From: an uncultured Pseudomonadota bacterium | Lineage (GTDB): Bacteria > Myxococcota_A > UBA796 > SXON01 | Length of the DNA: 64,000 nt | Assembly (NCBI GenBank): GCA_903921785.1 | Contig: CAIXRH010000181.1 | Coordinates: 1 to 64,000 of the forward strand | Reading direction: 5' to 3' | Shown here: positions 14,358 through 63,647 of the stretch, piece by piece | Layout: each line of letters begins with the position of its first letter | Position numbering within the stretch: position 1 is the stretch's first letter | Made by a program: the position numbers and the translations under genes | The notes under the pieces: generated by a model | The model's input: only the letters and a program-made list of their open reading frames with translations | What the model was told of the DNA's origin: nothing | The model's database searches: none

Positions 14358-15233
14358 TCAGTCCCCGGTGTACCCCAGGTCCCGCAACATCCGCGGGTTC
14401 GTCGTCCAGTCCGGCTCGACCGCGACGAAGAGCTTGAGCATCACGCGGGCGCCGAGCAGCGCCTCGATCTGCTTGCGGGCCGCAGTGCCGATGCGCTTGA
14501 CCATCTTGCCGCCCGCGCCGATGACGATCGCCTTCTGGCTGGGCTTCTCGATGACGATCCGGGCGAAGATGGTCACCTTCCCCTCGGCGCGCTCGCTCTC
14601 GTCGAACTTCTCGATCTCCACGGCGGCGACGTAGGGGATCTCCTGGCCGCACGCCACGAAGAGCTGCTCGCGGATGAGCTCGGCGCAGATGTCCTTCTCC
14701 CGCACGTCGGTGACGTGGTCCTCCGGGTAGAGCGGCTCGCCTTCCGGCAGGCTGCGCGCCCACTCCTGGAGCAGCTCCTCGGTGCCGTCGCCGGTGAGGG
14801 CCGAGATGGGCACGACCACGCCGGTCTGGGCGTAGATCGCCATGAGCGGGAGGAGGAGGCGCTTGTCCTCCAGCTCGTCGACCTTGTTGAGCGCGACGAC
14901 GACCTTCCGCCCGGCGAAGCGCGCGGCGAGCTCTTCGTCGTGGGGGCGCGTCGCGTCGACGATCCAGCAGAGCAGATCCACCTCGTCCATCGCGCCTTCC
15001 GCCGTCTTCACCATGCGGCGGTTGAGCTCGGAGCGCGGGCCGTGGAGCCCCGGCGTGTCGACCAGAACGGCCTGGAGCCCGGGCACATTGACGATGCCCA
15101 TGATCCGGGTGCGGGTGGTCTGGGGCTTGGGCGAGACCGCGGCGATGCGGACCCCGACCAGCCGGTTGAGCAGCGTGCTCTTCCCCGCGTTGGGGCGGCC
15201 GACGAGGGCGACGGTACCAGTGTGTGACGACAT
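14358..15233 (-). CDS. era: GTPase Era
   Basis: This is 291 aa from the ATG at 15233 (MSSHTGTVALVGRPNAGKST). The 447-aa track ORF extends into repeat DNA and is rejected. Era is a Ras-like GTPase needed for 16S rRNA maturation and 30S assembly. The P-loop GRPNAGKST, the switch-II DTPGLHGPR, NKVDELEDK for guanine recognition and PISALTGDG (G5) are intact. The C-terminal KH domain has VIGAGGKMVKRIGTAARK. The composite repeat lies directly upstream, in the promoter region. A GTPase normally found with rnc or recO is here alone. Confidence 0.95.
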   Translation of the reverse strand: MSSHTGTVALVGRPNAGKSTLLNRLVGVRIAAVSPKPQTTRTRIMGIVNVPGLQAVLVDTPGLHGPRSELNRRMVKTAEGAMDEVDLLCWIVDATRPHDEELAARFAGRKVVVALNKVDELEDKRLLLPLMAIYAQTGVVVPISALTGDGTEELLQEWARSLPEGEPLYPEDHVTDVREKDICAELIREQLFVACGQEIPYVAAVEIEKFDESERAEGKVTIFARIVIEKPSQKAIVIGAGGKMVKRIGTAARKQIEALLGARVMLKLFVAVEPDWTTNPRMLRDLGYTGD

Positions 15234-15285: not shown

Positions 15286-15380
15286 AATCCCGATGTCGAG
15301 GGGCTGGTGGCGCCGCACCGCCTTGCCGCCCGGACCCGTCGGCGGTCGAGGCGCCACGGTCGGCGAGAAGCGCGAGACCG
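15286..15380 (+). repeat. Dispersed element A, copy 1 (left arm of composite repeat)
   Basis: This begins aatcccgatgtcgagggg and includes ggtggcgccg, ccgtcggcggtcgagg and gtcggcgagaag. It resembles 33758-33850 in the same orientation and the reverse complements of 15640-15724 and 40790-40872. It lies between the era start and the 43-bp array. Confidence 0.65.
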
Positions 15381-15400
15381 AAGGAGGGGGCCGCCGCGGC

Positions 15401-15640
15401 GCACCCCCTCGCCTCGGGTCCGAGGCGGTGCCCTGCGCGTCCTGCACCCCCTCGCCTCAGGTCCGAGGCGGTGCCCCGCAGGGGCTGCACCCCCTCGCCT
15501 CGGGTCCGAGGCGGTGCCCTGCGCGTCCCGCACCCCTTCGCCTCGGGTCCGAGGCGGTGCCCTGCGCGTCCTGCACCCCCTCGCCTCGGGTCCGAGGGCG
15601 TGCCCCGCGGGCGCTGCACCCCACCGCCTCGGTCGCGCCG
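15401..15640. repeat. 43-bp tandem hairpin array (five full copies plus a partial)
   Basis: Units start at about 15401, 15444, 15487, 15530, 15573 and 15616, a constant 43-base period. Each opens gcaccccctcgcctcgg. Each unit contains the near-perfect inverted repeat CGCCTCGGGTCCGAGGCG, an 8-bp stem with a GT loop. The last unit is partial and degraded. Copies differ at only a few positions, mostly outside the stem. All six frames give Pro/Arg/Ala-rich peptides, so it is not coding. There are no unique spacers, which excludes CRISPR. Confidence 0.85.
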
Positions 15641-15724
15641 GCGCCCGCCTCGCCATTCTCCCCGCGGCGGCTCCTCGACCGCGGCGTCGGCTGCGGGGCA
15701 CGCCGGTGGAGGATCACCACCCCG
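15640..15724 (-). repeat. Dispersed element A, copy 2 (inverted right arm)
   Basis: The reverse complement reads ggggtggtgatcctccaccg, then gcggtcgaggagccgccg, then ggggagaatggcgagg. It aligns with copy 1 through ggggctggtgg, gcggtcgagg and ggcgagaag. It closes the 43-bp array on the side of the MopE-like gene, so the array is bracketed by inverted copies. Confidence 0.55.
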
Positions 15725-15756
15725 CGCTCATCCGGGTCGTCGACCGTCCGCGCGGT

Positions 15757-18700
15757 TCACGGCGCGATCCCGTAGAACAACCAGGCCGCGCCGGCGGCGC
15801 TGCCGCCCGGATCGGCCCCGGGCGCGCCCACGAGCACGTCCGCGAAGCCGTCGGCGTCGACGTCGCCGCCGAGGGCGACGCTGCTGCCGAGCTGGTCGGC
15901 CCGGCCGTCGCCGCGGAGCCGGCCGTCGGCAGCGGACAGCGACACGGCGCCGCTGAGCGGGCCGCGGAGGACGTAGACCGCGCCCGCCTCGGGGATCGTG
16001 GTGGAGTCCGACGGCGCGCCGATGAGCACGTCCCCGTGGCCGTCGCCGTCGATGTCGCCACCTCCTGCCAGTGCGGTGCCGACACGGGAGGCCGACGTCT
16101 CCTCGGTGAAGGTGGCGGTCGCCCGAGACAACGAGCCGCTGCTGAGCGCCCCGGCGCTGAGGAGATAGGCGTGGGTGCCGTAGGGCGCGCCGACGAGCAG
16201 GTCGTCGAGCCCGTCGCCGTCCACGTCGCCGGCCCCCGCGACCTTGCTGCCGGCGCGGTCGCCCGTGCGTTCCCCGAGCCACTTCACGTCCGCCGTGGTG
16301 AGGGACGCCGTCCCCGAGATCGGCCCGTATTCGAGGTAGACCGCGCCCGCGCGCAGCCCCACCGTCGACTCGCCCCACGCCCCGACGATCAGGTCCCCGA
16401 CACCGTCGCCGTCGAGGTCGCCGCCGAACGCCGCCGACGTGCCTGCACGGTCGAGGGACACCTGCCCGTACCGGGTGGCGGTGGCGGCGCTCAGCGACCG
16501 GGTGCCGATGAGCGATCCCGACATCACGTACACCGCGCCCGCCTTGCTCCCCCCGGAGTCTTCGTAGGGCGAACCCACCAGAAGATCGTCCACGCCGTCC
16601 CCCGTGACGTCGTGCCCCGCGTCGAGCGCGTAGCCCGCGAGGTCGCCCGCGGCGGCCCCGGTGACGGTGAGCGCGGCGGAGGTCACGTCCACGTCGCCCG
16701 CGAGCGGACCGGACAACAGGTAGGCCGCACCAGCCTGCACGCCGGCCGTGCCGTCCGCGCACGCGCTGACCCACACGTCGTCGAAGCCGTCGGCGTCCAG
16801 GTCGCCGGCGCCGGTGACGGCCCAGCCGACCCGGTCATCCGCGGCGTCGCCCACGAGGCGCGCGAGGGTCGTGGCGGGGTCAATCTGGCCCGCGCCCGGG
16901 TGACCGATGATCCAGACTGCGCCTGCGCCCACCGCACCCGCGTCGTTGCCCGTGGCGCCGACCGCGATGTCGTCGAGGCCGTCGCCGTCCACGTCGCCGA
17001 GGAACGCGACGCTGGTGCCCGCGGCGTCGGCGGCGAGCTCGCCGTCGAGCCAGGCGTCGCCGGCGGACGCGCTGCGGTCGCCCCACGGCCCGCAGACCTC
17101 CGAGAGGCCGTCGCAGTCGTTGTCGATGCCGTCGCCACACACCTCGGGGTTCCCCGGGAAGGACAAGGGCTCCGTGTCGTCGCAGTCGTCGTAGTCGGCG
17201 ACGTACCCGGCGGGCGCGTCGCAGGCGGCGGTCTTGCTGTGGCGGTCGCCCGCGCCATCCCCGTCGGCGTCGGCGTACCACTGGCTCTCGCCGCTGGCCC
17301 CGGCTTCGTCGACCGATCCGTCGCAGTCGTCGTCGATGCCGTTGCAGCTCTCACGGTGCCCCGGGTACACGGAAGCGCGGGTGTCGTCGCAGTCGGTGCC
17401 GTCGGCGATGTACCCGTCCGGCGTGGAGCAGCTCCAGGTGGCGGTCGTGGCGTCGCCGTGGTTGTCGCCGTCCGCGTCGGCGTACCACCAGCCCGCGCCC
17501 ACGCTGGTCCCGTCGTCGACGAGGCCGTTGCAGTCGTCGTCGGTGTCGTTGCAGACCTCCGGCGCCCCCGGGAAGACGGCGGCGTCCCCGTCGTCGCAGT
17601 CGTCGGACGTCGCCAACCCGTTGCTCGGCTGCGTGCAGGCGACGCGGGTCAGCGCGCCGGCGTGGCCGTCGCCGTCGCGATCGACGAACCAGGTCGCGGC
17701 GTCCACCGCGCTCACCTCATCGGCACCTTCGTCACAGTCGTTGTCGATGCCGTCGCAGCGCTCGATCGCGCCCGGGAAGACGTCCGCGTCGGCGTCGTCG
17801 CAGTCGCCAGTGGTGTCGGTGTAGCCGCCGGGGACCTCGCAGGCGCGGCGGAAGGAGGCCGCGGTGCCCACCCCGTCGCCGTCCGCGTCCGCGTACCAGA
17901 GCTGCGCGTCGGCGGCGCCGACGTCCACGGTGCCGTCACAGTCGTTGTCGAGGCCGTCGCACACCTCGGCGGCGTCGGGGTTCACCGTCGGGTCGAGGTC
18001 GTCGCAGTCGGAGGTGTCCTCGATCCAGGTCGGGTCCGGCTGGCAGCCCGTGACGACGGAGGCGGGATCGCCGAACCCGTCGCCGTCCACGTCCGCGGCC
18101 CAGGTGCCGGTGCAGTCCCCTCCCCCACCGCCGGTGTCTCCGGTGTCCGGTGGCGTCCCGGTGTCCGCGGGCGTGCCGGTGTCGACCGCGCCGGTGTCCC
18201 CCGTCGTGCAGCCTTCGTCCGCCACGCCGGTGCAGTCGTCGTCCACGCCGTTGCAGACCTCCGCCGCGGCCGGGGAGATCGTGTTGTCGGTGTCCACGCA
18301 GTCGGCGTCGTCCGGGACCCAGCCGGCCGGCGCTTCGCACTGGACGACCTCGGTGGCGGCGTTGCCGTACCCGTCGGCGTCGTCGTCCGCGTACCAGGGG
18401 AGCGCGTCGAGGGCGCCCGCGTCGAGGTCTCCGTCGCAGTTGGTGTCGATCTCGTCGCAGAACTCGTCCGCGTCGGGGTGGATCCAGTCCACGTCGTCGT
18501 CGCAGTCGCCGCCCTCGAGCACCAGCCCCGGATCGACGCCCGCGCACGAGCCGACCACGGCCTCGCCGCCCCAGCCGTCGCCGTCGAGGTCGACGTACCC
18601 CACGGGCACGTCCGCCGCGTCCAGGTCGACCTGCCCGTCGCAGTCGTCGTCCACGCCGTTGCACACCTCCACGGCGGCCGGGGAGATCGTCGCGTCGGTG

Positions 18701-19560
18701 TCCACGCAGTCGAACGGATCGGGCACCCAGCCTTCGGGCGCTTCGCACGCATAGACCTCGGTCGATGCGTCGCCGTACGCGTCCGCGTCTTCGTCGGCGT
18801 ACCAGGGGAGGGCGTCGAGGGCGTCGGCGTCGACGATGCCGTCGCAGTCGTCGTCCTCCCCATTGCAGAACTCGTCGGCGTCGGGGTGCACGGCCGCGCT
18901 GCCGTCGTCGCAGTCGAGCGCGTTCTCCACAAACCCCTCGGCCTCGGCGCAGAGCCACGCCGGCTCGACGGGGTCGCCGTAGCCGTCCCCGTCGCTGTCG
19001 GGGTACCGCAGGAGCCCGGGTTCGTCCTCGTCGACGAGGCCGTCGCCGTCGTTGTCGACGCCGTCGCAGAGGTCGGGGGTGGCCGCTGCGGTGTCGGTCG
19101 GCGGGGCGGCCGCGGTGTCGGCGGCCGAGTCGCCGGCGGTGTCGTCGCCGGGCGGGAATGGGGCGCCGGTGTCGACCGGGGGGTCGGGGACCGTGTCCGT
19201 CGGGTCGGTCGGGTCGGTGGTGCTCGTGCCGGTGTCGACGTCGCCGCTGTCCGCGGCCGAGTCCCCCGCCGGGTCCACGCCGCCGCTGTCGGTCGGGTCG
19301 CCGGTGCTCATGCCGCTGTCGACGTCGCCGCTGTCCGCTGCAGCGTCCCCGGTGTCGTCGTCGCCACCCAGGCCGTGCCAGTGCCAGCCCCCGATGTTCG
19401 GCCAGTCCTTCGAGCTCACCGGGTGATCCGGGATGATCACCGAGCCGTGGCCGCGAAGCCCCGCGTCCGTCGTGGTCGTCGGCGGGTCCTCGGGCGGGGC
19501 CGCCCGGCAGGCGGAGGCCACGAAGGCAAGCGAGACGACCAGCGAAAACGATGCGCGCAT
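15757..19560 (-). CDS. MopE-like metal-binding repeat lipoprotein with FG-GAP propeller
   Basis: This is 1267 aa. A lipoprotein signal ends in FVASAC. Residues ~50-160 are Asp/Thr/Ser/Gly/Ala linkers (DSGDVDSG, DTGTSTTDPT). Residues ~165-830 carry about a dozen putative metal-binding repeats in two alternating forms: a DSDGDGYGD-type calcium loop, and an EVCNGVDDDCDG-type Cys pair, as in MopE-like proteins. Residues ~850-1267 are FG-GAP/integrin-alpha repeats (GDVDGDGLDDIAVGA, GDLDGDGVGDLIVGA) ending AAWLFYGIAP, which should form a seven-bladed propeller. It is probably anchored on the cell surface and binds many calcium ions. It is divergent from a diguanylate cyclase gene, with 55 bases between. 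Confidence 0.9.
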   Translation of the reverse strand: MRASFSLVVSLAFVASACRAAPPEDPPTTTTDAGLRGHGSVIIPDHPVSSKDWPNIGGWHWHGLGGDDDTGDAAADSGDVDSGMSTGDPTDSGGVDPAGDSAADSGDVDTGTSTTDPTDPTDTVPDPPVDTGAPFPPGDDTAGDSAADTAAAPPTDTAAATPDLCDGVDNDGDGLVDEDEPGLLRYPDSDGDGYGDPVEPAWLCAEAEGFVENALDCDDGSAAVHPDADEFCNGEDDDCDGIVDADALDALPWYADEDADAYGDASTEVYACEAPEGWVPDPFDCVDTDATISPAAVEVCNGVDDDCDGQVDLDAADVPVGYVDLDGDGWGGEAVVGSCAGVDPGLVLEGGDCDDDVDWIHPDADEFCDEIDTNCDGDLDAGALDALPWYADDDADGYGNAATEVVQCEAPAGWVPDDADCVDTDNTISPAAAEVCNGVDDDCTGVADEGCTTGDTGAVDTGTPADTGTPPDTGDTGGGGGDCTGTWAADVDGDGFGDPASVVTGCQPDPTWIEDTSDCDDLDPTVNPDAAEVCDGLDNDCDGTVDVGAADAQLWYADADGDGVGTAASFRRACEVPGGYTDTTGDCDDADADVFPGAIERCDGIDNDCDEGADEVSAVDAATWFVDRDGDGHAGALTRVACTQPSNGLATSDDCDDGDAAVFPGAPEVCNDTDDDCNGLVDDGTSVGAGWWYADADGDNHGDATTATWSCSTPDGYIADGTDCDDTRASVYPGHRESCNGIDDDCDGSVDEAGASGESQWYADADGDGAGDRHSKTAACDAPAGYVADYDDCDDTEPLSFPGNPEVCGDGIDNDCDGLSEVCGPWGDRSASAGDAWLDGELAADAAGTSVAFLGDVDGDGLDDIAVGATGNDAGAVGAGAVWIIGHPGAGQIDPATTLARLVGDAADDRVGWAVTGAGDLDADGFDDVWVSACADGTAGVQAGAAYLLSGPLAGDVDVTSAALTVTGAAAGDLAGYALDAGHDVTGDGVDDLLVGSPYEDSGGSKAGAVYVMSGSLIGTRSLSAATATRYGQVSLDRAGTSAAFGGDLDGDGVGDLIVGAWGESTVGLRAGAVYLEYGPISGTASLTTADVKWLGERTGDRAGSKVAGAGDVDGDGLDDLLVGAPYGTHAYLLSAGALSSGSLSRATATFTEETSASRVGTALAGGGDIDGDGHGDVLIGAPSDSTTIPEAGAVYVLRGPLSGAVSLSAADGRLRGDGRADQLGSSVALGGDVDADGFADVLVGAPGADPGGSAAGAAWLFYGIAP

Positions 19561-28178: not shown

Positions 28179-28216
28179 TGTCCCCCCTCCCGGCCCTCCT
28201 CGACCCTCGCGAGCCA
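28179..28216 (-). repeat. Dispersed element C, copy 1
   Basis: Read on the minus strand this is tggctcgcgagggtcgagg followed by agggccgggaggggggaca. It matches 63469-63507 at about 35 of 38 positions and 46928-46965 through most of its length. It sits in the 157-base gap between the SMR-like and pentapeptide-repeat genes. Confidence 0.75.
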
Positions 28217-28287
28217 GGACCCGCCTCATCGCGGACGCCGCCGGGCGAGCGCGGCGAGGCCCGACCCCGCGCGCCGCCACCCCACCC

Positions 28288-33757: not shown

Positions 33758-33850
33758 AATCACGATGTCAAGGGGCGGCGGCCGGGTCCCGGTCCTGCCG
33801 CCCCGCCCCCGTCGTGCCGAGCGGAGCCACCGTCCGCGAGAAGGCCTCGA
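33758..33850 (+). repeat. Dispersed element A, copy 3
   Basis: This starts aatcacgatgtcaaggggcg and ends near ccaccgtccgcgagaagg, parallel to the copy at 15286-15380. It fills much of the 182-base gap between gspG and the glycosyltransferase gene. No associated 43-bp tandem array is seen. Confidence 0.55.
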
Positions 33851-33909
33851 CGGGCGGCGTGGCGTCCGGTGGCCCTCCAGCCTGCGCGCCGCGGACCGAT
33901 GAAGGCTCA

Positions 33910-40739: not shown

Positions 40740-40789
40740 GGCGCGGGGGGCTAACCGGGCGCGGGGAGCGCCGCCGTCCGCGCGGACGC

Positions 40790-40872
40790 TCGGAGAGCCA
40801 GGCTCGCCGACGGCGGCTCCTCGACCGCCGACGGCTCCGGTGGGCAAGGCGGGTCCCCGGCGCCACCCCATG
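40790..40872 (-). repeat. Dispersed element A, copy 4
   Basis: The reverse complement reads ggggtggcgccggggacccg, then ccgtcggcggtcgaggagcc, then gtcggcgag, closely matching copy 1 at 15286-15380. It lies upstream of accC in a 238-base gap that otherwise holds nothing recognisable. Confidence 0.65.
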
Positions 40873-40977
40873 GGCAGGTGAGCGACAGAACGTCACACGG
40901 GGGCGATCCTCCGCTCCGTCCCAGCCCTCATGGACAGAATCGCGCCGGCCGATCCTGGTTGTGGAGGCACTCCCCAT

Positions 40978-46511: not shown

Positions 46512-46975
46512 TCAGCCCTCGTCTGCGGGCCGCGCCGCGAGCTCCGCCGCCTTCTCCAGCCGTCCCCTCGCCTGCTCCACCGGGTACTTCTCCCCGTTGC
46601 GCTTCAGCTTCGCCTCGACGGCCGCTGCCAGATCGATCCCGGCCCGGTCCGCGAAGTTCAAGAGCGTGATGAGCACGTCCGCCGCCTCCGCGGCCACGTT
46701 CGGCTCGCGCGACGCGACCGGCGGCTGGGGCCCCCCGTCGGCGCTCCAGAGGTAGAGCTCCAAGAGTTCGTTCGCCTCCACCGAGAGCGCCATCGCGAGG
46801 TTGCGGGGGCTGTGGTAACGGCCCCAGTCACGTTCGGCGTTGAACGCTTGGATCGAGGCCTTGATCTCCTCGATCGTGGTCTGCGCGTCGGACCAGGGCT
46901 GCGGCAGCGCCTCGCCGACGTCTGTCCCGGCTCGCGAGGATGGAGGAGGGCCGGGAGGTGAACCCACCTTCGTCG

Positions 46976-63413: not shown

Positions 63414-63468
63414 AGCAGACCGGACGTCCGGGCGGAGCGGCCGCAGCGGGAGACGCCGACGCCGGTCA

Positions 63469-63507
63469 TGGCTCGCGAGGGTGGCGGAGGGACGGGAGGG
63501 GGGACAC
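63469..63507 (+). repeat. Dispersed element C, copy 3
   Basis: This reads tggctcgcgagggtggcgga followed by gggacgggaggggggacac. It matches the reverse complement of 28179-28216 at about 35 of 38 positions. It sits in a 234-base gap upstream of the AstE-like paralogue; nothing else is recognised there. Confidence 0.75.
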
Positions 63508-63647
63508 GTGAACGCACATTGAGAGGGAGAGGGGGTCCCACCTCCCAGCCCCGCTACGCCTGGCCCACTCCGGACGTCGTGAGCCAAGACAACCGTCGGC
63601 GCGCGGCGAAGGGGCGGAGAACGTGGGAGGGGCCGCAGTTGGCCGCC

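Follow-up and report, generated by a model that had tools for sequence, protein, structure and literature searches.

Prokaryotic MITEs are short, non-coding, high-copy elements that are presumably moved in trans (PMC10969869). The REP and REPIN sequences associated with RAYT genes are also short, reach hundreds of copies, lie between genes with enrichment at convergent gene ends, and are lineage-specific (PMC3116915, PMC3733652). REPINs are over-represented inverted doublets (PMC3116915), and REPs of the CGTC kind have stems of 8-9 bp and loops of 4-5 nt (PMC3733652). The BOX elements of Streptococcus pneumoniae are small, interspersed and biased towards convergent gaps, and are built as boxA-(boxB)n-boxC, with fixed boxA and boxC ends, a stem, terminal inverted repeats and a tandem middle of variable copy number; the same convergent bias of BOX, RUP and SPRITE has been interpreted as pointing to parasitic mobile entities (PMC3049150). 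In the neisserial intergenic mosaic elements and dRS3/RS arrays, short families crowd in gaps and inverted copies lie around other repeats, and dRS3 itself, an inverted repeat of 20 bp, serves as a target for phage integration (PMC3898611).

Here, we describe a repeat cluster upstream of era in a 64,000-nucleotide stretch of DNA from an uncultured bacterium (the window), in which two copies of a repeat, named family A, enclose a 43-bp tandem array, named B. Family A resembles MITEs in being short, non-coding and high-copy, but it has neither terminal inverted repeats nor a detectable target duplication. It shares with REP/REPIN sequences the small size, the hundreds of copies, the intergenic position, the enrichment at convergent ends and the lineage specificity, whereas it is not palindromic, does not occur mainly as a doublet and has no RAYT gene carrying matching flanks. 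The combination of a small interspersed repeat, a convergent bias and a tandem middle of variable copy number recalls BOX, yet the order of the modules differs at all three arrays that we know of. As in the neisserial elements, short families crowd together in the gaps and some copies flank other repeats in inverted orientation, but family A measures 92 bp and lacks the inverted ends of dRS3. We favor, with a probability of roughly 0.7, the reading that the gap upstream of era holds a cluster of unrelated pieces, namely independent A copies and a locally grown minisatellite B, and that A has spread as a non-autonomous mobile element. Repeat family A is real and apparently undescribed.

The repeat cluster upstream of era

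The gap between era and its upstream neighbor is 524 bp long and holds one A copy, array B and one inverted A copy. The features of the window are as follows.

14358..15233, minus strand: era, encoding GTPase Era, downstream of the repeat cluster (NCBIfam NF000908, 332 bits; TIGR00436)
15292..15389, plus strand: family A, copy 1 (88% identical to the consensus; nhmmer E=2.5e-21; covariance model 98.6 bits)
15401..15632, plus strand: 43-bp tandem array B, 5.4 units (TRF; unit profile)
15635..15732, minus strand: family A, copy 2, inverted (85% identical to the consensus; nhmmer E=3.4e-11)
15757..19560, minus strand, as era: upstream neighbor, a long gene of secreted type with Asp-rich repeats, FG-GAP/MopE-like by eye (ORF list; codon-based gene call)
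33764..33869, plus strand: family A, lone diverged copy (nhmmer E=1.1e-8)
40774..40878, minus strand: family A, lone diverged copy (nhmmer E=1.2e-13; covariance model E=6.7e-7)

The first-pass annotation had placed an array enclosed by two inverted arms at 15286-15724; both arms and the array were confirmed by TRF and nhmmer, with coordinates correct to about 10 bp, and the lone A copies that it had put at 33758-33850 and 40790-40872 were likewise borne out. The two arms are 73% identical to each other, which is far above shuffled sequence (z = 7.0). An NCBIfam search returned no match for the upstream neighbor, and Rfam gave no gathering-level match in the window. A scan of the era region with the sigma-70 consensus revealed no promoter, which means little in DNA of 72% GC.

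The gene order around era differs from that in its relatives. An RNase III-like gene, identified from translations, ends about 10 bp before era in four of ten same-genus genomes and lies some 90-190 bp before it in a fifth genus mate. In the genome of the window, the single rnc match is found on another contig (C161), and era follows an unrelated gene. The split of rnc from era, the unrelated upstream gene and the 524-bp gap together place the cluster at a site of past rearrangement. The closest relative was considered as an empty site and rejected; its gap upstream of era is 54 bp, but a different gene lies upstream. Era relatives of 79-83% identity come from MAG records labeled Proteobacteria, Deltaproteobacteria and Klebsiella pneumoniae, the last being an implausible submitter label.

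Array B has a period of 43 (TRF score 352) and a higher-order period of 129 bp (score 410). Units 1, 3 and 4 are nearly identical and units 2 and 5 share another tail, a higher-order arrangement typical of local duplication. A profile of the 43-bp unit detected 16 units in 1.9 Mb, all within three arrays (the era array, C313:10711-10965 and C332:16103-16317), and none in the reversed control. The likeness of units is 0.88-0.89 within the arrays on C181 (era) and C332 and 0.78-0.81 between arrays, as local duplication predicts. The 8-bp stem with a GT loop that had been ascribed to every unit is perfect in three of the five; it contains a single mismatch in unit 2, and two of its pairs are broken in unit 5. 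A hairpin with a 2-nt GT loop is physically impossible, the realistic form being a 7-bp stem with a 4-nt loop. Across 15 units of the three arrays no stem covariation was found (82.7% of variable stem cells paired vs 83.6% in shuffled data), and we therefore do not treat the stem as a selected hairpin. Array B as coding sequence was also rejected: the unit length of 43 bp is not divisible by three, Era of the relatives starts from the same methionine, and no gene was called in the region by the codon-based caller. One B-like match occurs in the viral collection IMG/VR.

Family A and other repeats in the genome

The genome of the window is a draft of 7.48 Mb in 362 contigs, about a quarter of which was read directly, and a search of it located family A on many contigs. 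The first-pass annotation had regarded element A as a dispersed, non-autonomous-looking repeat. A covariance model built from an alignment of 31 copies identified at least 150 (all E<=5.8e-5), which supports this view. Contigs totaling 843 kb contain 54 copies at E<0.01, and the reversed control of this set gave no match at that threshold. The unbiased sample of 1.59 Mb, formed by these contigs and a further 749 kb, contains 98 copies at E<=1e-3, or about one per 16 kb, and extrapolation yields roughly 460 copies per genome. When the full 1.9 Mb was searched in reversed form as a control, no match reached E<=1e-3 and two marginal ones lay at E 0.6-1. The same model detected no A copy in ten same-genus genomes. 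No exact match to the A core was returned by other collections of genomes and viruses, from which the window's own genome was possibly left out; a viral origin of A was rejected on the absence of the core from IMG/VR.

Element A spans about 92 bp (92 columns) between a sharp left edge, TGTCGAGGGGC, and a sharp right edge, AATGGCGGGGCGGGCG. Conservation begins abruptly at TGTCGAGG and ends after GGCGGGCG, and the copies share no flanks beyond these edges. Identity to the consensus ranges from 70 to 93%, with a median of 83%. Conservation is very uneven along the element, with a column variance about 17 times the binomial value; even when the older half of the copies is taken alone, 43 of 91 columns show almost no variation and the blocks GGTCGAGG and GGCGAGAATGG are near-constant. 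Either a recognized core or descent from several source subfamilies would fit this pattern, to which detection also contributes.

Several features of known mobile elements were looked for in A. There is no complementarity between the edges TGTCGAGGGG... and ...GGCGGGGCGGGCG, and hence no terminal inverted repeat. A k-mer test of the flanks of 127 copies found no target duplication (best z 2.7 of 1900 tests), and no recurrent transposase gene was present among 245 genes neighboring A. Flank joining found no A copy cleanly nested inside another repeat; the numerous spanning matches that it gave in GC-rich DNA were of low identity and were discarded, the best (C14) being an A copy adjoining the end of a family E copy. 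RNAalifold gave an energy of 0 over 126 copies and a weak result on 31 copies, and the strongest linked columns resemble subfamilies rather than base pairs. GTAG is absent from the A ends by eye. An internal CGTC precedes GGCGG..CCGCC, which could pair as a 5-bp stem with an 8-nt loop; compared with the CGTC REPs, the stem is shorter and the loop longer, which places A outside the REP tag definition.

The placement of A was analyzed with gene calls from a purpose-written codon-usage caller, by which about 90% of the sample is coding. Most unbiased copies are intergenic (89 of 98, about 91%), three lie in called genes and six at edges. Convergent gaps account for 28 of the 86 gaps occupied by A vs 89 of the 598 remaining gaps (excess p=1.7e-4), and divergent gaps are depleted of A (p=8.5e-4). 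This placement fits that of a tolerated parasitic repeat.

Other repeat families were observed in the same genome. Family E is intergenic and about 340-400 bp long, for example at C242:62525-62932 (L124:2525-2932), with 51 genome matches; its ends are 20-bp terminal inverted repeats, TSATACGGTYTGACCCTGAT, and it is a good MITE candidate that is absent from the 10 genus relatives. Family C (GGTCCTGGCTCGCGAGGGTGGAGGAGGGCCGGGAGG) occurs in the window at 28185-28220, 46914-46960, 63455-63500 and 63539-63600, and has 27 copies in 843 kb. At C252:26645-26709 and C242:30800-30900, units of about 16 bp (GGGCCAGCCCGAAAGT) form a short tandem array inside family E copies and occur singly as insertions in family C copies. 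Family D is a hairpin, GCCAAGGAAC..GTTCCTTGGGC, with two adjacent copies at C332:15945-16080, and its hairpins also lie beside some A copies.

Four RAYT-like tyrosine transposase genes (on C252, C184, C21 and C125) were identified, with 39.8-40.5 bits to PF01797; one of them scored 73.6 bits to NF047646, just below the cut-off of 80. Each has its own inverted 19-bp GGGTCAGGCCGATCGNATT pair (GGGTCAGGCCGATCG) just upstream, unrelated to A. There are 37 such RAYT-linked sites in the genome, many of them inverted pairs about 90 bp apart. Because the RAYT genes carry their own GGGTCAGGCCGATCG pairs, they would account for those repeats and not for A.

Alternative readings of the locus

Family A might be a selected functional site, protein-binding, RNA-level or chromosome-organizing, that sets or tunes the expression of era. 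The near-constant blocks within very uneven conservation are in line with such a role, as is the RNA folding of array B, which beats shuffled sequence (z=-4.8). However, A is absent from all ten genus relatives tested, is depleted in the divergent, promoter-bearing gaps and has no conserved structure, and subfamilies, visible as linked columns, together with detection bias also yield uneven conservation. We therefore consider a functional site improbable.

A modular repeat of the BOX type, with A and family C as end modules and B as the tandem middle, has a precedent in boxA-(boxB)n-boxC with its variable middle (PMC3049150). Family C directly follows two of the three B arrays, those on C313 and C332, and in four of the six gaps shared by A and C the two lie on one strand with A first. 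The modules are nonetheless inconsistent: the left one is A at era, no recognizable A on C313 and two D hairpins on C332, and the right one at era is the inverted A copy instead of C. The sharing of gaps by A and C is at the chance level (6 vs 6.5), and B is present at three sites only, which leaves this arrangement with a small probability.

The first-pass annotation had read the two arms and the array as one composite element, that is, a non-autonomous transposon with inverted A ends and the 43-bp array inside. The array is indeed bracketed exactly by inverted arms. Moreover, the close A pairs in unbiased sequence (on C181, C25, C53 and, at 540 bp, C174) are all inverted, in numbers that are tiny; further pairs from the other set are not countable, as inversion was part of the reason for their selection. 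Chance alone would not predict such a uniform orientation, which hints at some ordering. On the other hand, only the era array is bracketed by A, and no A arm was detected at the arrays on C313 and C332 at E<=10 apart from noise. A degenerate A copy read by eye beside the C313 array was rejected, as the profile gives it no support. Between the inverted A pairs at other places lie 8-654 bp of unrelated DNA, in one case (C174) with a predicted gene. The 73% identity of the arms is below the mean of 83% among random good copies of the family. Gaps that already hold one A copy contain three further copies in all, vs 11.2 expected by gap length and 5.5 per gap, so that co-occupancy is at or below chance. 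The role of A as a transposon-type end also finds no match in the element, which is without terminal inverted repeats or a target duplication. A composite is thus very improbable, and the "composite mobile element" at era looks like a chance neighborhood.

Least probable is a REP/REPIN-type nature of A with movement by the RAYTs of this genome, since the four RAYT-like genes, one of which has a partial A copy downstream, all carry their own inverted repeat unrelated to A, and A has no conserved fold over 126 copies and is mostly single vs the inverted doublets of REPINs (PMC3116915).

Origin of the cluster and its meaning

In the reading that we prefer, a cluster of unrelated pieces, two A copies would have arrived independently and in opposite orientation in the gap upstream of era. 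Minisatellite B would have grown between them by local duplication, presumably through slippage or unequal exchange. Family A would most likely have spread as a non-autonomous mobile element, with some enzyme acting in trans to copy it, and it may persist where it is least harmful, in intergenic and preferably convergent gaps and rarely in the divergent gaps that bear promoters. We infer this mobility from the distribution of A only. The column variance of A counts against the reading, as simple neutral decay does not give it.

It is conceivable, though unlikely, that A represents a kind of interspersed repeat that reaches hundreds of copies without terminal inverted repeats, a palindrome or a target duplication. 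If true, this would imply a copying route unlike those of DDE-driven MITEs and RAYT-driven REPINs, one that recognizes an internal conserved core, GGTCGAGG..CC..GGCGAGAATGG. The intergenic DNA of this one genome is crowded with unrelated repeats, including A, C, E, the RAYT-linked repeats and the tandem repeats B and F, which makes it a good system for studying the spread of non-palindromic repeats and the limits on it. The era locus also carries a caution: where hundreds of copies have only few tolerated gaps to settle in, it is to be expected that some repeats bracket others.
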